Assembly: GCF_034314105.1 (NCBI RefSeq)
Contig: NZ_JAVIWJ010000001.1
Location: 1,613,501 to 1,677,500, forward strand
Reading direction: 5' to 3'
DNA: 64,000 nt
DNA from: Pseudomonas sp. AB6
GTDB lineage: Bacteria > Pseudomonadota > Gammaproteobacteria > Pseudomonadales > Pseudomonadaceae
The stretch's first letter is position 1, and every line of letters starts with the position of its first letter. The notes under the pieces are model-generated. The model was not told where the DNA came from and did not search any database. It saw only the letters and a list, made by a program, of their open reading frames with translations. Positions 4,339 through 18,049 of this stretch are shown in pieces. Both the position numbers and the translations under genes were made by a program.

Positions 4339-4611
4339 TTAGGCCTTGGCTTCTTGGGTAGATTTAGACAGCAGCGCCGCCTTGATGCTTTCCGGTACTT
4401 TGTAGAAGTTTTTCTTGCTCTTCACGGGTGCGATCAACCGCAGACGAGACAACCAGCGAAGCGCGTCTTGCGGATTCACATCGGGGTAGACGTCCATGAG
4501 CTGAAGTGCGATGTCGTCTTCATCAAACTTTTCCTCTTCGCATACCGCGCTCAGCACAGATGTCGCCCAAGGAACAGCGGAAACGCCGGCCTTGACGAGA
4601 AATTCATCCAT
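4339..4611 (-). CDS. Detached C-terminal piece of the operon ATPase (or small separate protein)
   Basis: This 90-residue frame overlaps the end of the large ATPase gene by 61 bp. Read upstream of its ATG, the same frame stays open and natural-looking (RAKLPVATATKPKS) back to about 4650, where the ATPase frame turns into Arg-rich, unlikely sequence. I therefore think it is the true C-terminus of the ATPase, separated by a one-base frameshift. The residues (DIALQLMDVYPDVNPQDALRWL, then LRLIAPVKSKKNFYKVPESI) look like a winged-helix or helical tail. As a stand-alone gene it would start at 4611 and couple to the 511-aa gene 2 bp downstream. Confidence 0.45.
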   Translation of the reverse strand: MDEFLVKAGVSAVPWATSVLSAVCEEEKFDEDDIALQLMDVYPDVNPQDALRWLSRLRLIAPVKSKKNFYKVPESIKAALLSKSTQEAKA

Positions 4612-7130
4612 GCTCTTCGGCTTCGTTGCAGTAGCGACTGGTAGTTTTGCCCGAAGGCGCTGACGCGCACTACGTCAGGCTTTTTCTTTTTGGCCTCAAA
4701 CAGCCTATCCAACGAGAAGTACCAGCCCTGACTGAATTTTTCGAGGGTGGTGACGGACGTTGAGGTGTTCTCCAGTTCCAGCTTGTTGAGGAGATGAGCG
4801 AGTGCGGTTGTTTTCCAAACGTCCAGCGCCACGAACGGCTGCATGGATTCACGTCCTGCCGTAAGCTCGGTATGACTTTCCCACTGCCACAGCGCCTTCG
4901 GTGTCATGAGGAAGATGACCCGCACGCGGTTGCGCTTAGCGTTGATGTTAAGTCGTGCTTCGTGGGCGATATCAAGCAAGTCCAGCGTTTTGCTAATAGG
5001 TTGATCACCGGTCAGTTCCACGAACAGCATGATATGTTTTTTAAGTGCTTGGACACCCAGAACGCTTTCGTTGAGAAGCTTTTTGAAGTCGCCCGCCGAG
5101 CCAAGGTCTGTGTCTTTTTTGTGAGCGGATTGATAGCGACCAAATGGATTGCCGTTGAGAACCGGTTCTTCTTCTCCGATCGCAAGAAGAGACTCCACCA
5201 TCCAGAGGGGATTCAAACCGAGTGCCTCTGACCCGGTGATGACACCGACCGAGTAGTTGGACGATCTAGCCTCTACCGTGCTTTCTTGAGTTTTTTCGTT
5301 TTTTTCTTCGCTGATGAGGAGCTTTTCGTCCCGTAAGGTGAGAGGTGACGGGCGAACCGCTTTTTCAGGGAAGGCGTGTGCGGAAAGTGGATCATTTTCG
5401 TTAATCGCATCAATGGCTTCGAGGAGTTTGTCCTCGACTTTTTTCTGCGGGCCGCCGACCAGGTTCATGATGTTGGCGTTGCGCAGGGAGTATTCTTTGC
5501 CACCTTCGTTGCGCCGCGTGCATTGCAGCACCCCTAACCCGCACAACTCATCCAGAAATGCTTCAAACAGTGCGACGGTCATTGGTTCAAAAATATCGGG
5601 AGCCCACTCTTCGACAATCGCCTTGGCTCGGCTTGGCGAGAAGGTTCGTTTGCTCTGCGCGATCAGGCTGTAGGCGATCAGCTTGTAGCGCAGGTCAAGG
5701 TTGAGCGTGATGTCGAACCGATCACAAATCAGCTGGTTAATGTTGTGGTCACGCCGGATCTGCTCAATGTCATCCGTTGTGATGACGAGGCTGCCAACTT
5801 TGTTTTGATGGCGAGCACTCAAGGTCTGGATAAGTTCATGGCAAACGATATGAATCAGACCTGGGTGGCGGTTGGTCTCTACCAGGATACGGTTCATGAG
5901 AAGCGGTGTTTCGAACTCGTAGCCCAGATGACCCAAAGGCTCGCGAATTAACTGAAGAGCTTCGGTAGGAGTCATAATGGACACCTGGATCGCGCTCCCG
6001 AGCTGATGTAGCGGATAGTTTGGGGCGTCAGCGAAGCGACGTACGTTTTCCAAGCCTGCGATGACTACCTTGAAGCGCCCGTTACTATTGTTAACCAGAC
6101 CGCTTAGTTCGCGGAAGATCCGGAAACCGTTAGCAGCGTCCAAACCAAGGATCGGATCGATTTCGTCGAGACACACCATGAACGCATCCGGGTTCTCTCG
6201 GCGGAAATAGTCCTGCAAAGCCGCAACCTGACCGGCTGTATCGATCCCATAGGTTTCATTGATCAGTTTGCTGGTCACGGCATAGTTATAAATAGTCTTC
6301 CAGACGAAAGCGCGATGCTTATCGAGTTCGTTACCCGACAGGTTGGCTCGGTCAAGATTGCCATCCATCTGGTGCAGGAAGGCGTGGGATCGTTGCTCAG
6401 GATTATGAAAGCGACGCTGTGTCTCATTGAGTAGTGTCGTCTTACCCAATTGCCGGCCGCCAAAGATCATCGCTGCGCCATTGCGCATCGTTGTCAGCAT
6501 TTTGATGTCGTTCTCTCGACCGTAGCGCATCTCAGGGGGCGCCGGCTGCATCTGGTTACCCGTGTACGGATTAAAGAACGTCCACGGTAGACTCAGCTGC
6601 AAAAAGGTCTTAAGGCGCGAGGTTTCCTGGACGTTCAAACCTGCAAGGACGGTGAGCAAAATCGGGTCGACATGCAATAGCGTATGTCGTTCTCGTTTGG
6701 AGAAGCTTGCGAGGTCGTTACGCTCGTCGTTTGACAGATCTCGTCCTGAAATCAGGATCATTCGATCGTGTAAAAACTGGGTTTGTTCATTCAGAACTGT
6801 ACGGAGTTCAGCAACCGTCCATTCCCCGGTCGCGACCAATACGTTTATAGCCTGCTCTTCAGATTTCTGGTTGAAGAAGACGATGCCTCGCCCAGTCTCT
6901 CGTCGCCGCACAGACATAGTGAGTCGGCAAAACTTGTTATGTGCGGTGAACCCTGTCTTATGGGGCATGGTGGTGTCGAACACCGGATAAACAGCCTCCA
7001 ACCCTAGCGTATGGAGCACATGCACAAGCTGATCATAGGACAATTTATCCAGGGATTTTAGGCGTCCACGTAAGCCCACCAGGTCTTCAATTGCGCGTTT
7101 AAAATAGGAGGGGAGTGGGTCGAGCAACAA
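4551..7130 (-). CDS. Large P-loop (AAA/STAND-like) ATPase of the DISARM-like operon, damaged at both ends
   Basis: This reads as an 859-residue ATPase. Walker A is GGRQLGKTT (about 224-232), and Walker B is FMVCLDEID (about 317-325) followed by a sensor-like strand VVIAGLEN. About 210 residues precede the ATPase core, and a long helical part with an acidic linker follows it. Two defects stand out. The first usable start is a TTG at 7130 with no clear ribosome site, and the frame stays open straight up to the transposon end at 7162, so the original 5' end appears lost. The last ~32 residues (about 4551-4650) look out of frame, while the correct tail continues in the neighbouring frame (4339-4611). 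It is probably a pseudogene or a sequencing-error casualty. By position it is the first gene of the operon. Confidence 0.6.
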   Translation of the reverse strand: MLLDPLPSYFKRAIEDLVGLRGRLKSLDKLSYDQLVHVLHTLGLEAVYPVFDTTMPHKTGFTAHNKFCRLTMSVRRRETGRGIVFFNQKSEEQAINVLVATGEWTVAELRTVLNEQTQFLHDRMILISGRDLSNDERNDLASFSKRERHTLLHVDPILLTVLAGLNVQETSRLKTFLQLSLPWTFFNPYTGNQMQPAPPEMRYGRENDIKMLTTMRNGAAMIFGGRQLGKTTLLNETQRRFHNPEQRSHAFLHQMDGNLDRANLSGNELDKHRAFVWKTIYNYAVTSKLINETYGIDTAGQVAALQDYFRRENPDAFMVCLDEIDPILGLDAANGFRIFRELSGLVNNSNGRFKVVIAGLENVRRFADAPNYPLHQLGSAIQVSIMTPTEALQLIREPLGHLGYEFETPLLMNRILVETNRHPGLIHIVCHELIQTLSARHQNKVGSLVITTDDIEQIRRDHNINQLICDRFDITLNLDLRYKLIAYSLIAQSKRTFSPSRAKAIVEEWAPDIFEPMTVALFEAFLDELCGLGVLQCTRRNEGGKEYSLRNANIMNLVGGPQKKVEDKLLEAIDAINENDPLSAHAFPEKAVRPSPLTLRDEKLLISEEKNEKTQESTVEARSSNYSVGVITGSEALGLNPLWMVESLLAIGEEEPVLNGNPFGRYQSAHKKDTDLGSAGDFKKLLNESVLGVQALKKHIMLFVELTGDQPISKTLDLLDIAHEARLNINAKRNRVRVIFLMTPKALWQWESHTELTAGRESMQPFVALDVWKTTALAHLLNKLELENTSTSVTTLEKFSQGWYFSLDRLFEAKKKKPDVVRVSAFGQNYQSLLQRSRRAWMNFSSRPAFPLFLGRHLC

Positions 7131-7161: not shown

Positions 7162-7208
7162 GGGGTTGTGCCGAGATAAAGGAAATTTAGGACATTCGTT
7201 CTGTAACT
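7162..7208. repeat. Left terminal inverted repeat of the Tn4651-type transposon
   Basis: The left end reads GGGGTTGTGCCGAGATAAAG and continues inward for about 47 bp. Its counterpart at 18003-18049, on the other strand, reads GGGGTCATGCCGAGATAAAG. The two match at most positions, including a shared GGAAA.TTAGGACA block. GGGG-starting repeats of about 46-48 bp are typical of the Tn4651/Tn5041 branch of the Tn3 family. Confidence 0.85.
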
Positions 7209-7286
7209 GACTGTAATTACGTTGTTTTTTATTTATTCTCGTTGTGGCTTAAGCCAATACCCAAGAGGCTGTCATCCCGTATCTAG

Positions 7287-8297
7287 CTATGGCTTGCGCC
7301 GCAGTAAAGAGCCCGCAGCGTTCTCCTCGAAGGCTCTAGCCTCTTCGATATAACCGTGTACGGTGCCGTCATGCCGCCAGCCACCCTGACGTTTGATCTC
7401 GAGAAAGCCCGCCCCAGCCCGATGGGCGCTTGTGGCCAGTCCACGGCGTAGACTATGGCTGCTCATCTCGGGCACATACGACAGCCCTGCTGCTTCGGCA
7501 CGTGCCGACAGGATGGCATTAACGCTACCTTCGTGCAGTCCAACCTCGCCGAGTACTCCCCAGCGACTGATGCGCCGGAACAGTGGACCTTGCTCGATCT
7601 GCGCCGTATCCAACCAGCCCCGTAGTGCCTTCGCTGGGCAGCATATGCTGTCGCCGAACGGGATCGCTTTGTCCAGTCCCTCGCCCTCCTGATCGGTCTT
7701 GGAGCGAGGCAGTGTGATCCGCAGTCCTTCCCGCTCCCACTGTAAATATTGCACTTCCAACATGACTAGCTCGCTGCGTCGGAACGCCCCGAAGTACCCC
7801 ACTTGTAACAATGCGCTGTCACGAAGCGCGGTGAGCCCTTCAAGCGTGTCCAGGTGCGCCACGATGCGTTCTAGATCCTCCAGCAGCAGGGCCTTGGCTT
7901 TTTGTCGAGGGCGTCCGTGCACTCGCTCAATCCCACGCAAGGTTTTGCGTACGGTGGCGCTGGCGCCTGGGTCGGGAAAGCCCTGATAGCGATGCCATTG
8001 CGACAGCGCGGTCAGGCGCAGGGCCAAAGTGCGTGGGTTCAGCACTTCCGCGAAGGCCAGCAGGTAGCGAATCAGCGCGGCTTCATCGCACGGCAGCACG
8101 CCGCCCCAGGCGAGAAAGTGGCGAATGGCCGAGCGGTAGGTGCGCCGGGTGTTGTCGGCGGTGGCCGCCGCCAGAAAACGTTGGTGTTGCTCGGCCAACT
8201 GCGCGGGCGTGGCCAGCGTACCGGGGGTACGCGGGGGCACCGCGGGTGTGTCGAGCCACCTGGCGGGGAGATTTTCGTCGTGATGGCTGGCTGTCAT
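7287..8297 (-). CDS. tnpS: Cointegrate resolution protein S, tyrosine recombinase
   Basis: This is a tyrosine recombinase of about 336 residues. It has an N-terminal SAM-like core-binding domain (TRRTYRSAIRHFLAWGG), an arginine box in FGAFRRSELVML, the HxxR box in SSHSLRRGLATSAHRAG, and a C-terminal GGWRHDGTVHGYIEEA with the likely nucleophilic Tyr. With TnpT it resolves transposition cointegrates at the res core located between the two genes. It sits 78 bp inside the left terminal repeat, as in Tn4651. I prefer the ATG at 8297; a longer start at 8351 would put the N-terminus almost on the res palindrome. Confidence 0.85.
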   Translation of the reverse strand: MTASHHDENLPARWLDTPAVPPRTPGTLATPAQLAEQHQRFLAAATADNTRRTYRSAIRHFLAWGGVLPCDEAALIRYLLAFAEVLNPRTLALRLTALSQWHRYQGFPDPGASATVRKTLRGIERVHGRPRQKAKALLLEDLERIVAHLDTLEGLTALRDSALLQVGYFGAFRRSELVMLEVQYLQWEREGLRITLPRSKTDQEGEGLDKAIPFGDSICCPAKALRGWLDTAQIEQGPLFRRISRWGVLGEVGLHEGSVNAILSARAEAAGLSYVPEMSSHSLRRGLATSAHRAGAGFLEIKRQGGWRHDGTVHGYIEEARAFEENAAGSLLRRKP

Positions 8298-8362
8298 CCC
8301 AAAACGCCTGTTTAGGCCGTGTGTACTGCGGATTATAGAAGCGCATGCCAAACCTGTGCACC

Positions 8363-8394
8363 TAACTCACGATAACCAAGCTTATCGTGGGTTA
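8363..8394. promoter_or_regulatory. res core site for TnpS
   Basis: TAACTCACGATAA and TTATCGTGGGTTA form a 13-bp inverted repeat with one mismatch and a 6-bp spacer (CCAAGC). It lies between the divergent tnpS and tnpT genes, the same place and architecture as the recombination core of Tn4651-type elements. It probably also overlaps the tnpS promoter. Confidence 0.75.
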
Positions 8395-8487
8395 ATTGGC
8401 GCTCTCGACGAGCTTAACTATTCTTTACTTAAATCGATGTATTACGTTTCCCATAATACGGTACGAAAAAATCTGAGGTGTTCGTTC

Positions 8488-9540
8488 ATGGCCCGTTCCG
8501 GCGTCCTTTATGTGCATGTCGCCCATGCGGCGGCCCAGCTCGTCGCAGACGGCCGCAATCCGACGATTGACAGCATCCGCGCCGCCCTAGGCGAGACGGG
8601 CAGCAAAAGCACGATTGCCCCGTTGTTAAAACGTTGGAAAGCCGCGCATCCCGGCACGCTGGCGCAGGCCGAACTGGGGTTGCCCGCGGAGCTCGTCCTG
8701 GCGCTGAAGGGACTGTACGAAAAAGTTCAGGCGGAGGCGGCCATTCAACTCCAGCAGGCCGTAGAGGCTCACCAGTCAGAGACCGCCGCGTTGCAGGAGC
8801 AGTTGCAGCAAGCGTTTGTCGAGCGCGACGCGTCACTCAACGTTCAGAAGCAGCAGACCCATGCACTGGCCGCAGCCACTACCCGCAGCCAAGAGCTGGC
8901 TGACACCGTGCAGCGTCAGGAGATCGTCTTGGCCGGTCTAGGCAGTGAAAAGCTCGGGCTCGAACAGCGCCTGGCTGACCGCGCCGCCGAAGTCGCCTCG
9001 CTGACCCAGCAATTGCAACACTCGCGGGTGCAGTTCGAGCACTACCAGGCATCGGTCGCGCAACAACGCGCCGACGAGCGCCAGAGCGCTGAACAACGCC
9101 ACCATCGCCTGGAACAGGAGCTGACAGAACTCCGCCAGCTCCGGCTCGCGCAGCAAACCCGCCTGGGTGAGCTGCAGGCACAGGAACAACGCCGGGCGCA
9201 GGACAATGATCTGCTCAAGGACGCCCTGCTCACGGCCGAGGAGGCGCTCACTCAGAGCCGCAGTGCGCAGGAGCACCTGACATATCAACTCACCGAACTG
9301 AAACAGGGCCATATGACTCTGCAACAGCACCATGCCCAGGGCGAGCAGTGTTTGGTCGAGACACTGACGCGCCTGGCCGTGATCGAGAGAGAACGGAGCT
9401 TTGTGGCGGAACGTTTAACTCAGGCCGAAACGCAATTGACTGAGCTGGCCACAGAAAAGCAGCTACTCCTGCAAGAAAAAGCAGTGCTATCCAGTCAGCT
9501 CGCGGAGTTCAGGAGGATGGAACCGACCCCGTCATCCTAA
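8488..9540 (+). CDS. tnpT: Cointegrate resolution protein T, KfrA-like coiled-coil DNA-binding protein
   Basis: This is a 350-residue protein. Its N-terminal ~75 residues (VHVAHAAAQLVADGRNPTID, then IRAALGETGSKSTIAPLLKRW) match the KfrA-type DNA-binding helix-turn-helix domain. The rest is an almost continuous Gln/Glu/Leu-rich coiled coil to the C-terminus. In Tn4651-type transposons TnpT binds next to the res core and assists TnpS. The start at 8488 has GAGGTG 8 bp upstream; a longer in-frame start at 8356 would run across the res palindrome and is unlikely. Confidence 0.8.
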   Translation: MARSGVLYVHVAHAAAQLVADGRNPTIDSIRAALGETGSKSTIAPLLKRWKAAHPGTLAQAELGLPAELVLALKGLYEKVQAEAAIQLQQAVEAHQSETAALQEQLQQAFVERDASLNVQKQQTHALAAATTRSQELADTVQRQEIVLAGLGSEKLGLEQRLADRAAEVASLTQQLQHSRVQFEHYQASVAQQRADERQSAEQRHHRLEQELTELRQLRLAQQTRLGELQAQEQRRAQDNDLLKDALLTAEEALTQSRSAQEHLTYQLTELKQGHMTLQQHHAQGEQCLVETLTRLAVIERERSFVAERLTQAETQLTELATEKQLLLQEKAVLSSQLAEFRRMEPTPSS

Positions 9541-10800
9541 CGCCCCAAGATCCGGGTGATGCATTCATCGATATAACAGAAAGCGCGCGCCGCACATGTG
9601 AACCGTGCGCGTTCAAGCGCTATCCACCGTTCGCAATCCGGAAACTCAAGTGGACGCTGGTTCTCTCTCCGTGCTGCTCAGACTGACCTGTAATGTTAGA
9701 GAATCTAAATCTGGTGACCGCCTCCTGTCTGAATCCTGCGCATGAACCCCAGTCTGAGGGCTGTGAAAAACCGTTTCACATGGTCGAGGCCAGCCGGTGA
9801 GCCAGCGGATACTCGAATCCGATCGGCCGGGAGTCAAGGTGCTGTCGGTCTTTGACTTTGGGCACCTGACCAGGCACAACAGCTTTTTCCATTCCTGAGG
9901 TTTGCTTTTGGGAGGCGAGAGTTCAGCCGGAGAATGCAAGACTGGCGGTGCCTAGCCTGCGATTCCTCACACGTCGGCTCAACCGTGATGAACTCAAGGC
10001 TCATCTGATCAGCACATTCCTGAAGGGGGAAAGGAATGGGTCAAGCAGAAAGCTGAGGATTCCAGGAGGGTGTTTTGGACTAGGCTGATGCGATAAGCAG
10101 GTTTACGATCAGTCGCGACCGAAGTCGAGTCCGGGGCGGTAGTAACGCTCTGTTCTGCTTTTCCAACCTTGGTGTTGCAACCTTTCGCCGATGGCCTCGG
10201 CATCAAGCTGATTGGCACCGAACTGGAGGTCATCGAAGGATTGCTGATAGGACATATCACCGGCAACAACTGTCGGTGCGAGAATAAAGTTCTTCGCCTT
10301 GAGGCTGTCTATGGTCCTCTGAGTCAGTCCGACTCAGAGCTTGGGGCGATACCCGGGTGATCGAGAACTGCTGGCCGCCCCGCAAGACGCCCATTGGCGG
10401 AATTTTCATCCGGCACGGCGCCGTGGACAACTGCACCTGCCGGCCATCAGATAGCCGGCTGGCGGCGGAATGAGCTGAGCTGCGTTGACTTTCGTAACGC
10501 GGCACGCTTAGAATTCACATATTGTAACAATTGAGGTCGTATTGTATTGGACAGTCATTGTCGTCACTCGGAGAAATTCTCCGCACAAGCTTGGCACGAC
10601 CTCAGCTAGATTCCCTTAGCCAACGTCTTGCCAAGTGCAGGCGTTGCGCGCATCAGTATCAAACTCCTTCGCGTAACTAAAACATCAAGCCTGAGCGAGC
10701 AGATTTTTCTGTACTCGCCCTGATCGTCGCTTGCGTCTTGCGCTCGCTACGATCGCAGGTTTGTGCACCCATCGTCTGCCTCCGTTTGTGCAGCAGCGAT
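9541..10800. other. Transposon interior without a recognisable gene
   Basis: About 1.26 kb between tnpT and the leader region of the Nramp gene. Open frames of 60-100 codons exist on both strands, but none has a family motif together with a good ribosome site. It probably holds decayed cargo. I see no insertion-sequence ends or tandem repeats in it. Confidence 0.4.
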
Positions 10801-10844
10801 TGTTTTAACGTGTTCGTACCACCGGGTACGTAAAGGAGGGCGTC

Positions 10845-10937
10845 ATGCCACCCGAAAATAATCCAAGGCCATCTCAATATTTGAAGCTGTGCCTCCACGA
10901 AAAACATGAAGGAGAGACCTCTTATGGACCCCAGTAG
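10845..10937 (+). CDS. Candidate leader peptide 1 (30 aa, Pro-rich start)
   Basis: A 30-codon frame with an excellent Shine-Dalgarno sequence, AAGGAGG at 10833-10839, 5 bp before the ATG. The peptide starts MPPENNPRPSQYLK, so three proline-containing stretches and an acidic residue fall in the first nine codons, and it ends at a TAG inside the serine repeat of the next small ORF. It is 312 bp upstream of the Nramp transporter start. Proline-rich leader peptides control the Mg2+ transporter gene mgtA in enterobacteria (MgtL). A similar attenuation role here is inference from position and composition only. Confidence 0.45.
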   Translation: MPPENNPRPSQYLKLCLHEKHEGETSYGPQ

Positions 10938-10995
10938 TAGTAGTAGTAGTAGTAGTCCGGTCACTCTGATTGAAAGGGCGGCGTCTAGCGGGTAG
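10924..10995 (+). CDS. Candidate leader peptide 2 (23 aa, eight consecutive serines)
   Basis: This 23-codon frame (MDP, eight Ser, then PVTLIERAASSG) starts inside the end of leader ORF 1 in another frame. AAGGAG at 10909-10914 lies 9 bp before its ATG. All eight serines are encoded by AGT. The overlap means ribosomes finishing ORF 1 would cover this start, so the two could form a coupled sensing device in the 5' leader of the Nramp gene, which begins 254 bp downstream. No homologue is known to me. The strong ribosome sites argue that it is translated. Confidence 0.45.
   Translation: MDPSSSSSSSSPVTLIERAASSG
10933..10956 (+). repeat. (AGT)8 trinucleotide repeat
   Basis: Eight perfect AGT units encode the serine run of leader ORF 2 and also supply the stop codon (TAG) of leader ORF 1. 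Changes in unit number would keep ORF 2 in frame, so this would vary peptide length and not switch a gene off. Confidence 0.9.
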
Positions 10996-11249
10996 CAGTA
11001 CAACCATCACTGGCTGATCTCCTCCCTGTACTTCCCCCCGCATTTCTCTCCGCGTGACCTCTTCACGACCCTGACCACTTTTGGTCGACGGTTTAGTGCC
11101 CGTTTATTTCGCGCCCCTCAGCGCCAGGATGGCTGATTTTCCACTCTGATCCAGCTTTAGGCTTTGGTTTGCAGAGGGAAAGCACCTGCGCACCTGTCCG
11201 GCGGGAATCGAAAGCGGCATCCAGCGTTACGCTTTGGAGAGATTTCGTT

Positions 11250-12890
11250 ATGTCCAACTTGAAGATTGAAATTGCTGTTCTTGACAGTGCCCACGTCGGA
11301 GACATCCGAGGAGCATTCGGCACCATCCGTCATGACGACATCGCCCCGCGCAATAGTTGGTGGCAACGCTTCAAAACACTGATGGCCATCCTCGGCCCCG
11401 GGTTGATCGTGATGGTCGGCGATAATGACGCCGGCGCATTCAGCACCTACGGCCAGGCCGGCCAGAACTACGGAACCATGCTGCTGTGGACCATGGCACT
11501 GTTGATCCCGGTGCTGTATGTCAACCAGGAAATGGTGCTGCGTCTGGGTGCTGTGACGGGTGTCGGCCACGCCCGGCTGATCATCGAACGCTTCGGCAAG
11601 TTCTGGGGTGCGTTTAGTGCGATCGACCTGTTCATCCTCAACGCGCTGACCATCGTCACCGAGTTCATCGGCATCAGCCTCGGGATGGAGTTTCTCGGTG
11701 TGCCCAAGGTGGCCGGTGTGTGCGTGGCAGCGGTGTTCATCATGCTCGCAGCCTGTACCGGCGACTTCCGGCGCTTCGAACGCTTCGCATTGATCCTGGT
11801 GATTGGCAGCCTGCTCTTGGTACCCATTTTCGTGATGATCCATCCACCGATGGCACAAGTCGCTCACGATTTTTTCATCCCGCAACTGCCGACTGATGGC
11901 AAATTGTCGGAGGTGTTGCTGCTGATCATCGGCATCGTGGGTACCACCGTCGCACCATGGCAGCTGTTCTTCCAGCAAAGCTACGTGATCGACAAACGTA
12001 TCACCCCGCGCTTCATCAAGTACGAACGCGCCGATCTATGGCTGGGCATTGCGATGGTGGTGATTGGTGCAGTGGCCATGATCGCCTTCACCGCGCAAGT
12101 GTTTGTCGGTCACCCTGAGTTCGGCCAGTTCACCGATGCCGGCGCCATCGCCACAGGTATCGCCAAATATCACGGGCGCCTGCCGGGCGTATTGTTTGCC
12201 ATCGCATTGATCGACGCCAGCATCATCGGTGCAATGGCGGTGTCGCTGTCGACCGCCTACGCACTGGGCGATGTACTGAACCTGAAACACTCGCTGCATC
12301 GTAAACCAAGCGATGCCAAGGGCTTTTACCTGATGTACTGCGGCTTGATCGCCCTCGCTGCGGCGCTGGTGTTGATTCCGGGTGTGCCGCTCGGTCTGCT
12401 GACCAACGCAGTACAGACGCTGGCGGGTGTACTGCTGCCAAGCGCCACCGTGTTCCTGTTGCTGCTGTGCAACGACAAGGAAGTGCTGGGCCCATGGACG
12501 AACAAGCGCTTCACCAACCTCATTACTGCGGTCATTGTCGCGGTACTCGTACTGCTGTCGATCGTCTTGACAGCTGCGGTGGCCTTCCCGGATATGTCCG
12601 GTGAAACCATCACCAACATCCTCATCGGTGGCGGCTTGGTGGGACTCGTCATCGCCATTGCGGTAAATGTGCTGCACGCTCGCAAAGAAGTCGACAACGG
12701 GGCGCTGCCTGAGAACACCGTTACCTTCACCCAACAAATGATGCACGCCTGGCGGATGCCTCCACTGGCACAACTGAAGCCGATGGTACTGTCGCAACGT
12801 AACCGTATCTGGATGGGCGTGCTGCGCGGCTATCTGGTGGTGGCAATGGTCATGGTGATTTACAAGGTCATTCAGCTGGCACTCGCTTAA
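11250..12890 (+). CDS. Nramp-family divalent metal transporter, atypical metal-site motifs
   Basis: This is a 546-residue membrane protein with about 11-12 hydrophobic segments and the Nramp fold signature. TM1 has ILGPGLIVMVGDNDAGAFS (DND at 58-60), where classical MntH/DMT proteins have DPGN. TM6 has GTTVAPWQLFFQQ (231-243), where MntH has the MPH triplet. The canonical metal-binding methionine is therefore absent, a change known from Nramp-related proteins that do not favour Mn/Fe and include Mg2+ transporters. The substrate is unknown. The start at 11250 has GGAGAG 8 bp upstream; a longer frame to 11169 lacks such support. It is transposon cargo, preceded by two leader ORFs. Confidence 0.8.
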   Translation: MSNLKIEIAVLDSAHVGDIRGAFGTIRHDDIAPRNSWWQRFKTLMAILGPGLIVMVGDNDAGAFSTYGQAGQNYGTMLLWTMALLIPVLYVNQEMVLRLGAVTGVGHARLIIERFGKFWGAFSAIDLFILNALTIVTEFIGISLGMEFLGVPKVAGVCVAAVFIMLAACTGDFRRFERFALILVIGSLLLVPIFVMIHPPMAQVAHDFFIPQLPTDGKLSEVLLLIIGIVGTTVAPWQLFFQQSYVIDKRITPRFIKYERADLWLGIAMVVIGAVAMIAFTAQVFVGHPEFGQFTDAGAIATGIAKYHGRLPGVLFAIALIDASIIGAMAVSLSTAYALGDVLNLKHSLHRKPSDAKGFYLMYCGLIALAAALVLIPGVPLGLLTNAVQTLAGVLLPSATVFLLLLCNDKEVLGPWTNKRFTNLITAVIVAVLVLLSIVLTAAVAFPDMSGETITNILIGGGLVGLVIAIAVNVLHARKEVDNGALPENTVTFTQQMMHAWRMPPLAQLKPMVLSQRNRIWMGVLRGYLVVAMVMVIYKVIQLALA

Positions 12891-12916
12891 ATGTAAGCGT
12901 CGGTAAAGCCCGGACA

Positions 12917-12995
12917 TGGTGTCCAACTAAATTGATTTGCCCCCCGAAAGCGATGCCCAACCTTCGGGGTCAGATCACACATTAGGTGGACACCA
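12917..12995. repeat. 79-bp palindromic MITE-like element
   Basis: The ends TGGTGTCCAACTAA (12917-12930) and TTAGGTGGACACCA (12982-12995) are inverted repeats matching at 13 of 14 positions. An inner stem CCCCGAA/TTCGGGG is nested between them. It lies 27 bp after the Nramp gene, so the inner hairpin may act as a terminator. It could be a miniature inverted-repeat element or joined ends of a lost insertion sequence. No target duplication is visible. Confidence 0.6.
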
Positions 12996-13181
12996 TCACC
13001 CCAAGCGCTGAGATCATGAAGGTGTGTTGGCAGGACGGTTACAATGAAACAGCGCTTCGACAGAGCGTCCTTCTCCAGTAATTACAACTTCACCCGGATG
13101 TCACTCCTCGCGTAATCCAGCAGCGCGTTCGGGTTTCTTCGGCCAGTTATGCTTAGAACTCTCCTTTTGGAGGATGTCCTG

Positions 13182-13871
13182 ATGTGTGGAAGACTGTCCC
13201 AGTACCACGGTATTCACGATTTCGTCGCCGCGCTGAGCATGCCAAACCCCGTGGTCAACTCAGTCGGAGAAGCACCGCTGGAACGGTACAACGTGGCGCC
13301 ATCGACTCAAGTTGCCCTGCTTCATCTTGAAGATGAAACACTTCGTGCCGACCTGGTACGCTGGGGGTGGCACCCTCATTGGGCTACCGATCGTCTGCCG
13401 CCGATCAATGCCCGCGCCGAGAAAGTCGCACATGGCCTCTTCTTCCGGGCGATCTGGCCTCACCGCGCCATCGTGCCGATCGACAACTGGTTCGAATGGG
13501 TTGTTGAGAACGGAATAAAAAAACAACCCTATCTCATCCGGCACCGAGACAGATCGCCCATCCTGTGTGCGACCATCGGCCAGTTCCCTGACACAAATGA
13601 AGGCCCAGGGGAGCATGATGGATTTGTGATCATCACCGCCGACAGCGCCGGTGGCATGATCGACATTCACGACCGGCGCCCGGTGGTTCTGGAGCCAAAG
13701 TTAGCTCGGGAATGGCTGGACCCGACCACGTCAAAGGAGCGCGCAGAGCAGATGGTGCTGCGCCATGGCGATCCGACCGAGGCCTTTGAGTGGTTTAGGG
13801 TCAACCCCGGTGTTGGCAACGTGCGAAATCAGGGCGCAGGCTTGATCAAGCCTTTGACCAGCCTGTCATAA
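13182..13871 (+). CDS. SRAP domain (HMCES/YedK) abasic-site DNA-protein crosslink protein
   Basis: This is a 229-residue protein beginning MCGR, which fixes the start: after Met removal Cys2 is the residue that forms the thiazolidine crosslink with abasic sites in single-stranded DNA. GGAGG lies 8 bp upstream. Other SRAP features are the RYNVAPS motif, WGWHPHWA, INARAEKV and the DNWFEWV stretch. The C-terminal part (TADSAGGMIDIHDRRPVVL) carries the conserved HDR-P motif with the active-site His. The family shields abasic sites at replication forks. It rides in the transposon between the Nramp gene and a broken YkvA gene. Confidence 0.85.
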   Translation: MCGRLSQYHGIHDFVAALSMPNPVVNSVGEAPLERYNVAPSTQVALLHLEDETLRADLVRWGWHPHWATDRLPPINARAEKVAHGLFFRAIWPHRAIVPIDNWFEWVVENGIKKQPYLIRHRDRSPILCATIGQFPDTNEGPGEHDGFVIITADSAGGMIDIHDRRPVVLEPKLAREWLDPTTSKERAEQMVLRHGDPTEAFEWFRVNPGVGNVRNQGAGLIKPLTSLS

Positions 13872-13917
13872 GCCGCCTCGCTGGCCTGTCCAGCTATTTG
13901 GGCTTTCAATGTAGAAA

Positions 13918-14301
13918 TGAAAGGTCTTCTTGAGCATCTGCGGCGTTGGGCAAAAAACCTGAAACGGCAGACCATGATTCTATGGTTTTGCTACCACCAC
14001 CCTCAAACGCCTTGGCTACCAAAATGGATTTCGGTTTCGTGATGACCTATGCGCTAAGTCCCATCGACCTCATTCCTGATTTCATCCCGAAGTTGGGGTA
14101 TCTGGACGATGTAATCATTCTGCCACTCGGTATTCTGCTGGCGATTCGATTTATGCCCCCTTGGTTCTCGAGGAGTGCCAGCTAAAAGCGAGTGCGTGGG
14201 AACAAGATCAGGTGAAGCGCCGAGAGCGAGTTAGAGCCGGGTTAGAAAAAGTCGATATACTGTGTGAGAAACCTCGTGAGCACTACTATGACACTCACTG
14301 A
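13918..14301 (+). pseudogene. YkvA (DUF1232) gene broken by two frameshifts
   Basis: An ATG at 13918 opens a frame reading [17 protein letters not shown] and ending TPWLPK near 14020. The family core [20 protein letters not shown] continues in a second frame (about 14021-14150), and the conserved tail [17 protein letters not shown] follows in a third frame from about 14160 to the stop at 14301. Reading across the three frames restores a normal-length YkvA-type small protein, so two single-base indels have destroyed it. DUF1232 proteins are of unknown function and membrane-associated. Confidence 0.7.
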
Positions 14302-14482
14302 CGCTACTCTCGTGTTGCTCTTGGCGGCGCGCATTCATGGGACAGATGAGGCTGTCAGGGCCTCTGCGAAGAGCTGTGTAAAGAAGTTGCCGCGCGGCAA
14401 ACGTGATCTCATTTACACGGTGATTAATAGCCGAAGCCCGCTCGAGCTAGTGGACTTTCTAGCGCAGAACCTCGATACGTGA
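14288..14482 (+). CDS. Small hypothetical protein (64 aa)
   Basis: The frame starts MTLTDATLVLLLAARIHG at 14288 and ends FLAQNLDT. It is helical, with no motif I recognise. It overlaps the tail of the broken YkvA gene and ends 34 bp before tnpC, which is on the other strand. The amino-acid pattern looks natural, but there is no strong ribosome site, so it may be a remnant. Confidence 0.35.
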   Translation: MTLTDATLVLLLAARIHGTDEAVRASAKSCVKKLPRGKRDLIYTVINSRSPLELVDFLAQNLDT

Positions 14483-14516
14483 GTTCTCTTACCGTGACCA
14501 TCGTTGAGGTCCAGTC

Positions 14517-14873
14517 CTAAAAGTCAGGAGCAAGTGCTGCCAAAGGAGCCAGATGTTTAGAGCCTGTTTGCAAGCAAGAACACAGGGTAGAAATATCCTC
14601 TTGAAGGACCACCGCCTGTTCCCAAATACTGTCAACATCAGTGATAGCTACGGCGAGAGGAGAATCTTCCAATATCGTCATGGCCATGGCATGCAGACGT
14701 AAGAAGTTGTCCCGAATGCCGCCGATCCCACCAATTTCAGCAAGACAGGCATCTAGCCGGTCCACCAAATTAAGCAATTGAGAGGTGTCGTAGCTCACGC
14801 GTAGGGAATCGAGTGCCTTGGCATCAACTTCCCCATAGGGTGTCACTCGAAACGAAGCGGGTGGGATGTGCAT
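14517..14873 (-). CDS. tnpC: TnpC-type transposition regulator
   Basis: A 118-residue protein with no enzymatic motif, mostly helical (SQLLNLVDRLDACLAEIGG, then SIWEQAVVLQEDISTLCSCL). Its ATG overlaps the tnpA stop in an ATGA arrangement, so the two are translationally coupled. In Tn4652 a small gene in exactly this place, tnpC, lowers transposase level after transcription. The assignment rests on position, size and the Tn4651-type context. Confidence 0.65.
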   Translation of the reverse strand: MHIPPASFRVTPYGEVDAKALDSLRVSYDTSQLLNLVDRLDACLAEIGGIGGIRDNFLRLHAMAMTILEDSPLAVAITDVDSIWEQAVVLQEDISTLCSCLQTGSKHLAPLAALAPDF

Positions 14874-17800
14874 CAGTTCGTCTCCTCAACTTTGCTATGG
14901 GACATCTGTTGCCCACGAATCGAACCCGCAGCCTGCTGGAAAATGGAGTCTTTGATCCAGGGCTCAGGGGGGCGCTTGAGGCTGAGATTGAATTCTCCAA
15001 AGCGTTTGACGTTGCTGGTCAGGTAGGGGCTGAGAAACGATACATCTTCATCGGTAAACTGCCAGCCGTCACGGGCGAGCTTCTGCAGGATGCGCATCAT
15101 GTCAACGGTGTTCTGCAAGATCACTGAGGAAGCAATCATGTCGTTGTAACGCAAGCGCTTCTGTTGCTCATCTGGATCGTTCTCGGCGATGACATCGCCG
15201 CCGAAGGACAGCCACTTCGAGAAACCGTTGTAGGACTCGATCTTGTTGGTATTGGCGGTTACTTCTTGGCGCAACTCACGGTTGCCAATCCATTTGAGTA
15301 GGAAAATGGTCCGGATCACACATCCCAACTCCTGCGCTGCATGGTAGAGCTTGTTGCGCCTACTGTAAGAACCGAGTTTACGCAGCAGCATTGGCGAGGA
15401 TATTTTGCCGGCCTGAATCGACAGCGCCACCTGCATCAGATCCTGCCAATGGGTTTCTATCTGGCTCCAGTTGACGGTATCAGTAAAGAGGCTGTTGATA
15501 TGCTTGTACTTGACCGAGCGATCGGGCCGATACATTACTAGGTTGCGCCAGTTGCGAATGCGAGGCATTAGATTGATGCCCAGCAAATGGGTGAATGCAA
15601 ACACTGTTGCGGACTGGCCTTGAGTGTCTGAATAAACCGTATTGACTTCAACGCTATGATCCGCTTTCAGCAGGCCCTCAATGACATAGATAGCCTCCCA
15701 GATGCCTGGAGGGATGAAGTGCTGAAAGACTGCGATGTAGTTATTTGCCACATGTCGGTAGGCGACCGCGCCCATCTTGCGATATCGGAAATGGTAGCCT
15801 GCGAGCAAGTTTTCATCGTAAAAGTCAAATTGTGTCCCGTCGGCCGCTACCGCCTTACCGTCGCCCCAGAGCTTGGGCAGATCAAGCTGGAGATAAAGCT
15901 CGACCAACTCCCGGTTAGCCTTATCCAGCTTGTCGAGTGGCAGGTGCCGACGATTGGTGTAAGACAGCATGTGTGGGGTCACGTTACCCGCCAGATGGCG
16001 AGCAGCCTGGTTCGGCCCTAGGTTGCAGCCCATGGCGAAGATCGTCATCAGGTAGCGCTCGGCCGGCTCCTTCAGTTTGGGATCGCTGCCGGACATCGGC
16101 CCGAAATGACGGGTGAACTGAATCCAGTGTTCGATGTTGGCCATGATGTCGAGCACATGCCTGGCAGGCATACGCTGTGTGATAGCCGTTTGTAACGAGA
16201 TTGCTGAAGGCGGGATGTCACGGGCGACCACTCGGCGCAACACAGGATCACCGGCCTCATTAATCGACACATCACCGCGGCAACTGGGAAACTTGTCATC
16301 CAACTGCTGAGCAGTACTCTCAAGTTGCTCCTTCAAGCTGGCGACAAACTCTGTGGCCGTACTCGGCAGGCCGACCTTTTCGCAGTACTCCGGCAGACGA
16401 GCCAGACACTCATCCCAAGGCAGTAACTGTTTGCGGTAGTCAGCAAACGACTCCGAGCCAAGCACACAGATATCGCCAGAGCGAAGCTCATTGGCCAGAT
16501 GGGAAAAAACGCAGACTTCCAGGAAGCGCCGATTGGTCGGTGGCCCTTCGCTGGGGGCACGACGGACAACTTTGATCCAGCGATCCGAGGCGAATGACAG
16601 GTCCACATGCTCGTCGATCCATTCCCTATGCAGGATCTCGTTGGCCTGGACCAAGTGCAGAGCCTCGATCAGCGAGCGATCCTGGGTTGTTGGCTCCAGT
16701 TGCAGCAGATGACTCAGGCGGAACAGCAATGATCGATGGGATTTGAAGTGCTTCCAGAGTAGCGGGAGATAGTTACTGCCGCCTGTGGCCTGGACTTCGG
16801 CGCAGGCCTCGCGAAGGTGATCAAGATTCCCTTCGGGGGACAGATACTCGCGAATCAAACTGCCAGCTTCCTGATCGCTTGGTTCTTGGCTGAGAATCTG
16901 AATCACACCATCCAAAGTGGCCACGAGCAGCTCTAGTTTTTTGCGCTGACGCTGCTGGATTTGCTCCAACTCATCCTTGGCTCGCTTGTGAATAGTCGCG
17001 ATACGCTTGATGAACATCTCAGCAAGGTGATCCCGTGCTCGTACACGCATGAGGTAGATCAGAGCCAGCATCAAAGTGTAGCGCTTTGGAAGCGAACAAT
17101 CCTTAAGTTCAGAAACATCCGCTTTCTCCGCTTGATTCGCAAAAAACCAAATCTTAGTATCAACGATCCCTTCAAAGATGGAGTCGAGATCACCGAATCC
17201 CTCCAACCAACTTAAGTGATCGATCAGTATCTCCAAGTGTTTGCGAGAGGGCTTTTTGGGGACATGCTTCAGGGCATTGAAGTCGCTTTGGCGACGACCG
17301 AAATCGGTGTCAAGAAGCTCTCTGAGACGGTAGATCACATCTATCGGAGCTCTATCGACGACTCGATTGAAAATCTTTTCCTGGAGAACAACTTGGGCGT
17401 CTTCAGCCGCGTCATTGAGCGTCGAGTAGGCCGGGAGTTCGTAGCCTCGCTCAAGCAGCTCGCCAATCAGGACATTGATGACGTCAACACGCTGATCAAG
17501 GATCACTACCGCTTCGTGGGCAGCTTCCTGCGCAATTTTTAGGGCATCGGTCCCATAAAATGGAGTGATCTGTAGGTATTGGCGGATAGCTGTTTGATGA
17601 CGATACAGGGTTCGGGGGGTTGCATAACGAGGAACTATGCGCGCCCCGTAACTCAGGCAAGACCTGACATGGTTGACGATTTCAGCTGGAATTTCCTCGA
17701 AAACAGGGAAGTAATGAAGCTGTTGGAATGCTTTAAGCAGAACGGCTAACCCAATGGTAAGAGCAGGGCTTTTAGCCGTTCTAGAGAGCCATTCGAGCTC

Positions 17801-17890
17801 CGATTCTGAGAGCGAATAGCTCTGATGAAGTTCTTTCGACGACAGATTCGTCGGCAGCTTCGGATAGGCTGTCCGCTCCAGAGAGGCCAT
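14873..17890 (-). CDS. tnpA: Tn3-family transposase
   Basis: This is a 1005-residue, full-length Tn3-family transposase. The catalytic triad is visible: Asp in VAADGTQFD (about 684), Asp in VYSDTQGQ (about 755) and Glu in TNKIESYNGFSKW (about 885). The N-terminal half holds the DNA-binding region for the terminal repeats. The protein catalyses replicative transposition through a cointegrate, which TnpS/TnpT then resolve. It starts at 17890, about 110 bp inside the right terminal repeat, and overlaps tnpC at its 3' end. No frameshift was seen. Confidence 0.95.
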   Translation of the reverse strand: MASLERTAYPKLPTNLSSKELHQSYSLSESELEWLSRTAKSPALTIGLAVLLKAFQQLHYFPVFEEIPAEIVNHVRSCLSYGARIVPRYATPRTLYRHQTAIRQYLQITPFYGTDALKIAQEAAHEAVVILDQRVDVINVLIGELLERGYELPAYSTLNDAAEDAQVVLQEKIFNRVVDRAPIDVIYRLRELLDTDFGRRQSDFNALKHVPKKPSRKHLEILIDHLSWLEGFGDLDSIFEGIVDTKIWFFANQAEKADVSELKDCSLPKRYTLMLALIYLMRVRARDHLAEMFIKRIATIHKRAKDELEQIQQRQRKKLELLVATLDGVIQILSQEPSDQEAGSLIREYLSPEGNLDHLREACAEVQATGGSNYLPLLWKHFKSHRSLLFRLSHLLQLEPTTQDRSLIEALHLVQANEILHREWIDEHVDLSFASDRWIKVVRRAPSEGPPTNRRFLEVCVFSHLANELRSGDICVLGSESFADYRKQLLPWDECLARLPEYCEKVGLPSTATEFVASLKEQLESTAQQLDDKFPSCRGDVSINEAGDPVLRRVVARDIPPSAISLQTAITQRMPARHVLDIMANIEHWIQFTRHFGPMSGSDPKLKEPAERYLMTIFAMGCNLGPNQAARHLAGNVTPHMLSYTNRRHLPLDKLDKANRELVELYLQLDLPKLWGDGKAVAADGTQFDFYDENLLAGYHFRYRKMGAVAYRHVANNYIAVFQHFIPPGIWEAIYVIEGLLKADHSVEVNTVYSDTQGQSATVFAFTHLLGINLMPRIRNWRNLVMYRPDRSVKYKHINSLFTDTVNWSQIETHWQDLMQVALSIQAGKISSPMLLRKLGSYSRRNKLYHAAQELGCVIRTIFLLKWIGNRELRQEVTANTNKIESYNGFSKWLSFGGDVIAENDPDEQQKRLRYNDMIASSVILQNTVDMMRILQKLARDGWQFTDEDVSFLSPYLTSNVKRFGEFNLSLKRPPEPWIKDSIFQQAAGSIRGQQMSHSKVEETN

Positions 17891-17975
17891 GGAGTTCTTC
17901 CCTCAAGAAAAAGCAAAAGCTTCAGCATAGACGGCTAAACTCGGGACGAGGAAAAGCAACACAGTAAAAAATTTA

Positions 17976-17997
17976 ATATATATATATATATATATAT
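17976..17997. repeat. (AT)11 dinucleotide repeat near the right transposon end
   Basis: A 22-bp perfect AT alternation lies just inside the right terminal repeat and upstream of tnpA. It is likely to be easily melted or bent. IHF acts at the ends of Tn4652, but I do not see a clear IHF consensus here. Confidence 0.8.
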
Positions 17998-18002
17998 CAT
18001 AC

Positions 18003-18049
18003 GGTTACATTAAGAGTGTCCTAATTTTCCTTTATCTCGGCATGACCCC
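18003..18049. repeat. Right terminal inverted repeat of the Tn4651-type transposon
   Basis: On the minus strand it begins GGGGTCATGCCGAGATAAAG and pairs with the repeat at 7162-7208. It lies next to the tnpA 5' end, as expected. Confidence 0.85.

Follow-up and report, generated by a model that had tools for sequence, protein, structure and literature searches.

In the passages of open-licence papers in PubMed Central (PMC) from which all literature is cited here, the examples of leader peptides exerting Mg2+ control come from enteric bacteria (mgtL and mgtM/mgtP/mgtQ), and control of the transporter gene nrmT is described via M-boxes in Clostridia and deltaproteobacteria. In Escherichia coli, a Rho terminator stays open when mgtL is translated in full, and ribosome drop-off at EPDP under low Mg2+ leads to transcription of mgtA (PMC11282234). 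In Salmonella, mgtQ is an 8-amino-acid (aa) frame with Asp2 and Glu5 whose control involves drop-off and alternative stems (PMC8092293). Here we describe a leader in a 64,000-nucleotide (nt) stretch of Pseudomonas sp. AB6 (contig NZ_JAVIWJ010000001.1, positions 1,613,501 to 1,677,500; hereafter the window), which precedes a divergent Nramp transporter gene on a Tn3-family transposon. An earlier note on this DNA had singled out two small overlapping open reading frames, ORF1 and ORF2, as a possible translation-coupled metal or amino-acid sensor. We find that the leader is genuine and conserved, and that it belongs to a wider leader family. ORF1 and ORF2 form the lower part of a predicted leader of ~730 nt that likely acts as a translation-coupled attenuator, inducing a predicted Mg2+ transporter at low Mg2+. 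Coordinates are those of the window, and features lie on its plus strand unless stated otherwise.

A Conserved Upstream Frame with a TTG Start

The leader extends beyond the block 10820..11250 considered in the earlier note, and ORF1 and ORF2 make up only its lower half. The first of its three frames, upstream ORF 0 (uORF0; 10547-10609), lies outside that block; it starts with TTG, encodes the peptide MDSHCRHSEKFSAQAWHDLS, and recurs in other genera. Its start was found through k-mer counts over 75 non-redundant upstream regions, which led to GGACAGT; family members include MDSCSSRPSNSFSA in Paraburkholderia-type loci, MESCSSSWLSTGSC in Chromobacterium, MDSCPSSLNRVS in a Gallionellaceae genome, and MESCPSCRFGELN in Paludibacterium. 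In an alignment of 38 loci (A4), 34 frames start with TTG and the other 4 with ATG, and the second codon specifies Asp in 31 and Glu in 7; these loci were selected by a pattern demanding Asp or Glu at codon 2, which is therefore no test within A4. The frame stops after 10-20 codons in the 38 rows, at exactly 14 in 24 of them; the +1 frame lacks a shared stop, and the +2 frame mostly terminates early. We built a covariance model (R1) from the same 38 loci, the window sequence included. Among 25 R1 matches outside the model (22 nrmT loci and 3 mgtC loci), 24 begin with TTG or ATG, carry Asp2, and stop after 10-15 codons. Beyond the first 6-8 residues, uORF0 and ORF2 both vary in sequence and length across genera. 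We regard uORF0 as more likely than ORF1 to be the key sensory frame.

In the first codons of the leader frames (55 distinct ones), AGT encodes 75/112 serines, 7 of these lying in the window's own run; in the transporter genes it encodes 122/1927. A strict uORF0-plus-promoter pattern, composed after viewing the sequences, is found in 52/140 upstream regions, 0/140 reverse strands, and 0/1400 mononucleotide shuffles. The window carries a predicted sigma70-type promoter, TTGACT-18 nt-TAGAAT, at 10485-10514, recognized by sequence pattern only, and a TTGAC box and a -10-like box (10509-10514 in the window) precede uORF0 in other loci too. Scanning 10500-11300 for promoters returned none because the promoter-like site begins at 10485. 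Three relatives (L008, L009, and L018) have leader frames in series, including a 45-48-aa frame (MHYAMLLSTEQ..., MSYGMLLTPVQ...) between uORF0 and an MDP/MDEDP-type frame.

Mutually Exclusive, Covarying Helices

Three segments around and beyond the end of uORF0 can form two competing helices. Segment a (GGCACGACC, 10593-10601) lies within the last uORF0 codons in the window's clade and directly past the stop in most relatives; segment b (ACGTCTTGCC, 10623-10632) can pair with a or with c; and segment c (GCAGGCGTTGCG, 10637-10648) has lost one base in the window relative to L002. The consensus segments are GGCAMGAC (a), GTCYTGCC (b), and GGCAGACGGTGCG (c). Helices a:b and b:c share b and are hence mutually exclusive, and both covary. 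For b:c, 90.0% of alignment cells are paired, with double changes in 4/9 pairs and 13 such cells; for a:b, 80.1% are paired, with double changes in 4/9 pairs and 12 such cells (in each case, 0/500 shuffles had as many). Without guidance, RNAalifold recovers the outer portion of helix b:c, and each of the 38 b:c hairpins is more stable than its mononucleotide shuffles, with z below -2 (-2.45 in the window). Predicted folding energies of the two alternatives in the window are nearly equal (-15.7 kcal/mol for the a:b region and -14.8 kcal/mol for the b:c region). In A4, segment a begins exactly 2 nt past the uORF0 stop in 26/38 rows; the gap is 2-5 nt in 32 rows and 14 nt in a single row, and in 5 rows, the window's clade included, a lies inside the frame. 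Because the stop sits within a few nucleotides of a, a terminating ribosome would cover this segment.

A further conserved, long-range helix involves ORF2. Its 5′ arm (GGTCACTC, 10959-10966) lies inside ORF2 and its 3′ arm (GCGTGACC) at 11052-11059, as defined in a second alignment (A2). The ORF2 motif GGTCAC(N)C can pair with G(N)GTGACC, which lies 85 nt farther downstream in the window: across 17 distinct rows, 97.1% of cells are complementary, and one pair occurs as A-U, G-C, and G-U. The 3′ arm is spanned by a C-rich, G-poor stretch at 11000-11079 (36 C, 10 G), a candidate Rho loading region: its excess of C over G is 26, and values of at least 16 occur in just 104 of the 12784 80-nt windows covering both strands of the 64 kilobases (kb). 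A local hairpin within ORF2 (CCGGTCA-TGACTGG) was spotted by eye only. No Rfam 15 family matched the leader at its gathering score in the window or in 20 related loci, and an M-box riboswitch was rejected on the same search; permissive thresholds gave three matches, all far below their own gathering scores.

Distribution of the Element

The element occurs upstream of several kinds of transport gene and of mgtC. R1 has one strong match in the window, at 10547-10665 (E = 3.9e-19; the window is a member of the model), and one strong match across the whole genome. We chose 55 transporter loci from those outside the model; a same-strand upstream match at E < 1e-3 (best 3.4e-27) occurs in 22 of them, in one case (L064) 2.2 kb upstream. 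Other Nramp genes of Pseudomonas gave 0/24 matches at E up to 1; these control loci are 27-32% identical to the window transporter, mostly MntH-like, and have approximate start positions. Genome searches with R1 scored 60 or 90 candidates per genome, and the counts that follow are lower bounds. Forty Pseudomonas genomes contain at least 4 matches at E up to 0.01, namely the window gene and three directly before mgtC (Pfam MgtC), where the uORF0-type frames read MDSCPSRSRQALAAS, MDSCPGRLRQVHTAR, and MDSSPSRLRQAHTAS. The mgtC gene of P. aeruginosa, whichever leader it bears, is reported to be strongly induced at low Mg2+ (PMC4469704). Sixty Burkholderiaceae genomes contain at least 48 matches at E up to 0.001, in at least 27 genomes; of these 48, 21 are found 0.2-0.73 kb ahead of nrmT in the same orientation, and another 4 at a distance of about 2.1 kb. 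We fetched 20 of the remaining 23 for their downstream genes: 5 precede mgtC (two by Pfam, three by the same protein start), 1 precedes mgtA, 0.7 kb on (TIGR01524, 1278 bits), 4 precede ABC-transporter genes 0.3-1.4 kb on (three tested), and 1 has another Nramp gene 1 kb downstream. Leaders of Pseudomonas mgtA genes (L116-L145) also carry signals that weakly fit a Mg2+ theme: 10/13 type-2 leaders, whose frame is MGTCSSDSCRPVSVTGRFSAR with a GTG start, score E 0.001-0.015 with R1 and another scores 0.51, and several type-1 genes have MDEASSSPLRAS-like frames at about -190. Neither Rfam 15 nor our searches of open-licence PMC papers yielded a description of the element.

Several of these loci show additional leader-like features. 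G663, G682, and G697 have, about 2.1 kb ahead of nrmT, a second same-strand R1 match that lies ~1.7 kb farther upstream than the first. L050, L074, L076 (minus strand, about 1240-1391), and L148 have a second R1-like leader (GTG start, MDT...), divergent from the nrmT leader and placed before a porin gene, which is of the OprB family in L076, the one tested. A conserved 45-50-aa frame (MNFGLLLSQLPHVEESRxHYDAML...), of which one example had no Pfam match, lies between the second uORF and nrmT, at about -260 to -340, in L029, L050, L076, L148-L170, and other Burkholderia and Paraburkholderia loci.

The Two Overlapping Frames ORF1 and ORF2

ORF1 (10845-10937, ATG to the TAG ending at 10937) encodes MPPENNPRPSQYLKLCLHEKHEGETSYGPQ behind the Shine-Dalgarno sequence AAAGGAGG, and ORF2 (10924-10995, ATG to the TAG ending at 10995) encodes MDP-S8-PVTLIERAASSG behind AAGGAG. 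The frames overlap by 14 nt, the ORF2 start preceding the ORF1 end. Read directly, the coordinates and codons agree with the earlier description of two overlapping frames with good Shine-Dalgarno sequences and eight AGT serines (10933-10956), and the gap of ~255 nt given there measures 254 nt from the ORF2 stop to the transporter ATG (11250). The PRPSQYLKLC of ORF1 resembles what we take to be the end of MgtL.

The two frames differ in how widely they are conserved. Homologous loci were the best 80 from a search of genome contigs with the transporter as query. ORF2-like frames starting MDP, MEP, or MDEDP lie at about -215 to -322 in L004-L010, L014, and L018, and the genera in which ORF2 precedes a homologous transporter are Pseudomonas, Paludibacterium, Aquitalea, and Pseudogulbenkiania. 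ORF1 is confined, among the loci read, to the window's small clade (window/L083, L002, L003/L084): L002 and L003 have both frames, with ORF1 reading open, ORF1 is matched also in L083 and L084, and L004-L006 retain ORF2 and lack ORF1. Conservation of the small frames, which the earlier note had proposed as a check, is seen across genera for ORF2 and, among the loci read, only within this clade for ORF1.

Comparison among relatives indicates that variation in the AGT tract is a matter of repeat slippage or expansion. L083, which is 99.6% identical to the window across the whole 3.2 kb (window 9300-12500), has 12 AGT copies where the window has 8; the other 16 rows of A2 have at most 3, and other relatives have 2-3 serines at this position (SNSS, CSSS, or SSS). 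A serine sensor is disfavored by this repeat variation, a conserved run of the regulating codon being absent. The in-frame tract of these near-identical elements (8 versus 12 copies) could be a length-variable tuning site.

Frame starts rich in Asp/Glu and Pro were tested separately under definitions (A-C) set after viewing 80 discovery loci. In the discovery set, definition A was satisfied by 31/80 upstream regions, 4/80 reverse strands, 8/634 flanking windows, and 60/1600 shuffles. Once fixed, it was satisfied by 26/48 new loci versus 0/48 reverse strands and 1/24 other Nramp leaders; definitions B and C gave 12 and 26 of the 48. The new loci (53 fetched minus 5 near-duplicates) are mostly Burkholderiaceae, from species related to the discovery set.

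The Transporter

The downstream gene (11250-12890) encodes an Nramp transporter (Pfam Nramp, 8.7e-79) that comparison with structurally solved relatives predicts to be an NRMT-like Mg2+ importer. Its nearest solved relative is EleNRMT (7qia, E = 3.2e-53), followed by 10ky (2.5e-19) and MntH (1.7e-14). EleNRMT transports Mg2+ and Mn2+, and the NRMT signature comprises TxxA/T in helix 6, replacing A/CxxM, and DxxG in helix 1 (PMC8806188). Helix 6 of the window transporter reads TTVA, aligned to TTIA of EleNRMT, where MntH has ATVM, bearing out the earlier observation that the usual Mn/Fe methionine is absent. Helix 1 reads DAGA versus DAGG in EleNRMT; because it departs from DxxG, we call the transporter NRMT-like by its nearest relative and do not file it as a member. 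Among the candidates scored in the host genome, no MgtA exceeded the family cut-off.

A Model for the Leader and Its Alternatives

From the anatomy and covariation of the leader we infer a model for its polarity, sensed ion, Mg2+ response, ribosome drop-off, and Rho dependence. A ribosome finishing uORF0 would cover a, b:c would form, and the transcript would end early, probably via Rho (off). At low Mg2+, a ribosome dropping off near Asp2 would leave a free, a:b would form, and transcription would continue (on). ORF1 and ORF2 would constitute a second such stage, in which ORF1 passes ribosomes into ORF2 through the overlap and the AGT tract alters nothing but ORF2 length; leader and transporter ride together as cargo of the transposon. 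The leader likely works like MgtL/MgtQ. It has an N-terminal acidic residue, and its helices are coupled to the frame by sequence and position; since none of the frames shows the two-acid motif near its start, membership is unproven.

Several observations weigh against this model. The main weakness is that each frame has one acidic residue near its start (D2 in uORF0 and ORF2, E4 in ORF1), where EPDP of MgtL has two, so that drop-off may be weak or differ in mechanism; some relatives' second leader frames do carry two (MPDPEP, MPDSDS). Selection on the peptides is weak within the window's clade: ORF1 shows 4-5 synonymous versus 6-9 non-synonymous codon differences, and those in uORF0 are all non-synonymous. 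Many uORF0 rows are close relatives, and L024, an R1 match outside the model, has neither the start codon nor Asp2. Of the 55 transporter loci outside R1, 33 have no such match, and among the 20 fetched Burkholderiaceae matches, 1 precedes an RND adaptor gene, 7 have no assigned downstream gene, and 1 has an SBP56 gene 1.7 kb downstream. Helix a:b fails 2/5 covariation measures (496/500 shuffles for "further pair types" and 63/500 for "pairs with a change on both sides"), and the window's own clade breaks 1/8 pairs of the long-range ORF2 helix. Covariance folding, which the earlier note had proposed as a check, supports a:b and b:c; the 433-nt stretch 10830-11262 as a whole folds no better than shuffles (z -0.59). 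A simple pattern scan of 10500-11300 found no intrinsic terminator, which likewise tells against attenuation driven by amino-acid supply.

Other explanations fit parts of these data. The switch could be an RNA-only metal riboswitch whose a/b/c fold senses Mg2+ or another ion directly, with the small frames incidental. Nucleotide choice is indeed constrained beyond the peptide, as in the AGT preference of leader serine codons, and an M-box precedes Clostridial nrmT (PMC4072509). We nevertheless consider a riboswitch unlikely, given the start codon, Asp2, and stop retained in all but one match outside the model, a stop at most 5 nt from a or an a inside the frame in 37/38 rows, and a conserved fold that consists of a simple hairpin and its alternative, with no aptamer and, in the window and 20 related loci, no Rfam family at gathering score. 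Amino-acid attenuation, with ribosomes stalling on serine (AGT), cysteine, or proline codons when charged tRNA is scarce, is improbable. It would account for the eight AGT codons of the window and the frequency of Ser, Cys, and Pro in the leaders, and charged tRNA-Pro is sensed by Salmonella mgtP (PMC8092293); but the serine run is unconserved and varies by slippage, and the downstream genes are mostly those of ion and other transporters plus mgtC, not of serine metabolism. The metal half of the sensor proposal is supported, in the form of a Mg2+ leader, by conserved uORFs, exclusive covarying helices, an Nramp whose nearest solved relative is a Mg2+ transporter, and the element before mgtC and mgtA; its serine half is not supported, the run being an AGT repeat expansion.

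Still less probable is that ORF1, ORF2, or uORF0 encodes a functional small protein, for example a transporter regulator, in a leader without a sensing role. The conserved ~45-50-aa protein between uORFs and nrmT in Burkholderia-type leaders lends this some appeal, yet uORF0 and ORF2 diverge across genera after their first 6-8 residues and uORF0 abuts the covarying switch. That the frames arose by chance, or are a relic decaying in mobile DNA, a caveat of the earlier note, deserves very little credence. Frames of 20-30 codons do arise by chance and segment c is one base short; this reading is contradicted by conservation in several genera, by covariation, by a transporter frame that is intact, and by open reading of all three small frames in the window.

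A broader proposal extends the Mg2+ attenuator model beyond this locus, and we judge it evenly balanced. It holds that the TTG-started MD(S/T/A)(C/S)S peptide and the a/b/c switch would form an undescribed, general, ribosome-gauged Mg2+ sensor of Pseudomonas, Burkholderiaceae, and Chromobacterium-type bacteria, controlling nrmT, mgtC, mgtA, and further transport genes. Here the sensor would be packaged with the transporter in a transposon as a portable Mg2+ uptake unit, with a second stage bearing a length-variable AGT tract.

The Transposon Carrier

The leader and transporter lie within an element at 7162-18049 that has a Tn3-family transposase domain and long terminal inverted repeats. The 46-nt repeats (left, 7162-7207, plus strand; right, 18004-18049, minus strand, 85% complementary to the left) enclose a Tn3-family transposase, TnpA (14873-17890, minus strand, DDE_Tnp_Tn3 domain), in agreement with the earlier statement that the leader is carried on a transposon. 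Domain searches also identify a tyrosine recombinase (7287-8351, minus strand), presumably TnpS-like, and a KfrA_N-domain coiled-coil protein (8356-9540), presumably TnpT-like. At the TnpA end, the DNA is 78-93% identical to Pseudomonas plasmids among the matches listed, with TnpC annotated beside it. The element resembles what we take to be the Tn4651-type class in its TnpA, its tyrosine recombinase adjoining a KfrA-like protein, its TnpC-like frame, and its 46-nt inverted repeats; it differs in its cargo of an nrmT-like gene with leader and an SRAP (SOS-response-associated peptidase) gene. No 5-bp target duplication is present, atcga and gagtt flanking the two repeats, and recombination of the ends may account for this. 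The region that L002 and L003 share with the window is only 10474-12903, which suggests that the leader-transporter module moved as a unit. The SRAP gene lies next to the transporter at 13149-13871, and a large protein with a weak nSTAND1 match (4551-7130) lies immediately outside the left inverted repeat.

Comparison with Known Systems

If the proposal is correct, ribosome-based Mg2+ sensing arose or spread far beyond enteric bacteria, as the element is common to nrmT, mgtC, and mgtA. The element would also serve as a sequence marker for Mg2+ genes and provide a convenient way to test how a ribosome is made Mg2+-sensitive by an acidic second codon. Carriage by a transposon suggests that control travels along with the transporter.

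The described systems each share part of this design. The M-box of Clostridial nrmT likewise places a related transporter family under Mg2+ control (PMC4072509), but it is an RNA aptamer without a leader peptide, and the window leader has no M-box match. The copper-responsive uORF CruR is also metal-linked, with a C>G bubble and Rho-dependent termination (PMC9426467); it differs in sensing Cu by CXXC and in its RAPP arrest motif, neither of which occurs in the three frames of the window. The mgtQ leader, between Salmonella mgtC and mgtB, is an Asp2 frame with alternative stem-loops in which drop-off favors the transporter. It has a second acid, Glu5, and acts on mgtB translation within an operon, whereas the window leader precedes the entire unit (PMC8092293). 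MgtL of E. coli mgtA differs from the window family in the peptide (MD[STA][CS]S.., with a TTG start and one acidic residue near it), in the a/b/c helices, and in most downstream genes; in both, a short frame with an acidic N terminus stands before a Mg2+ importer and the mRNA can adopt alternative forms (PMC11282234).

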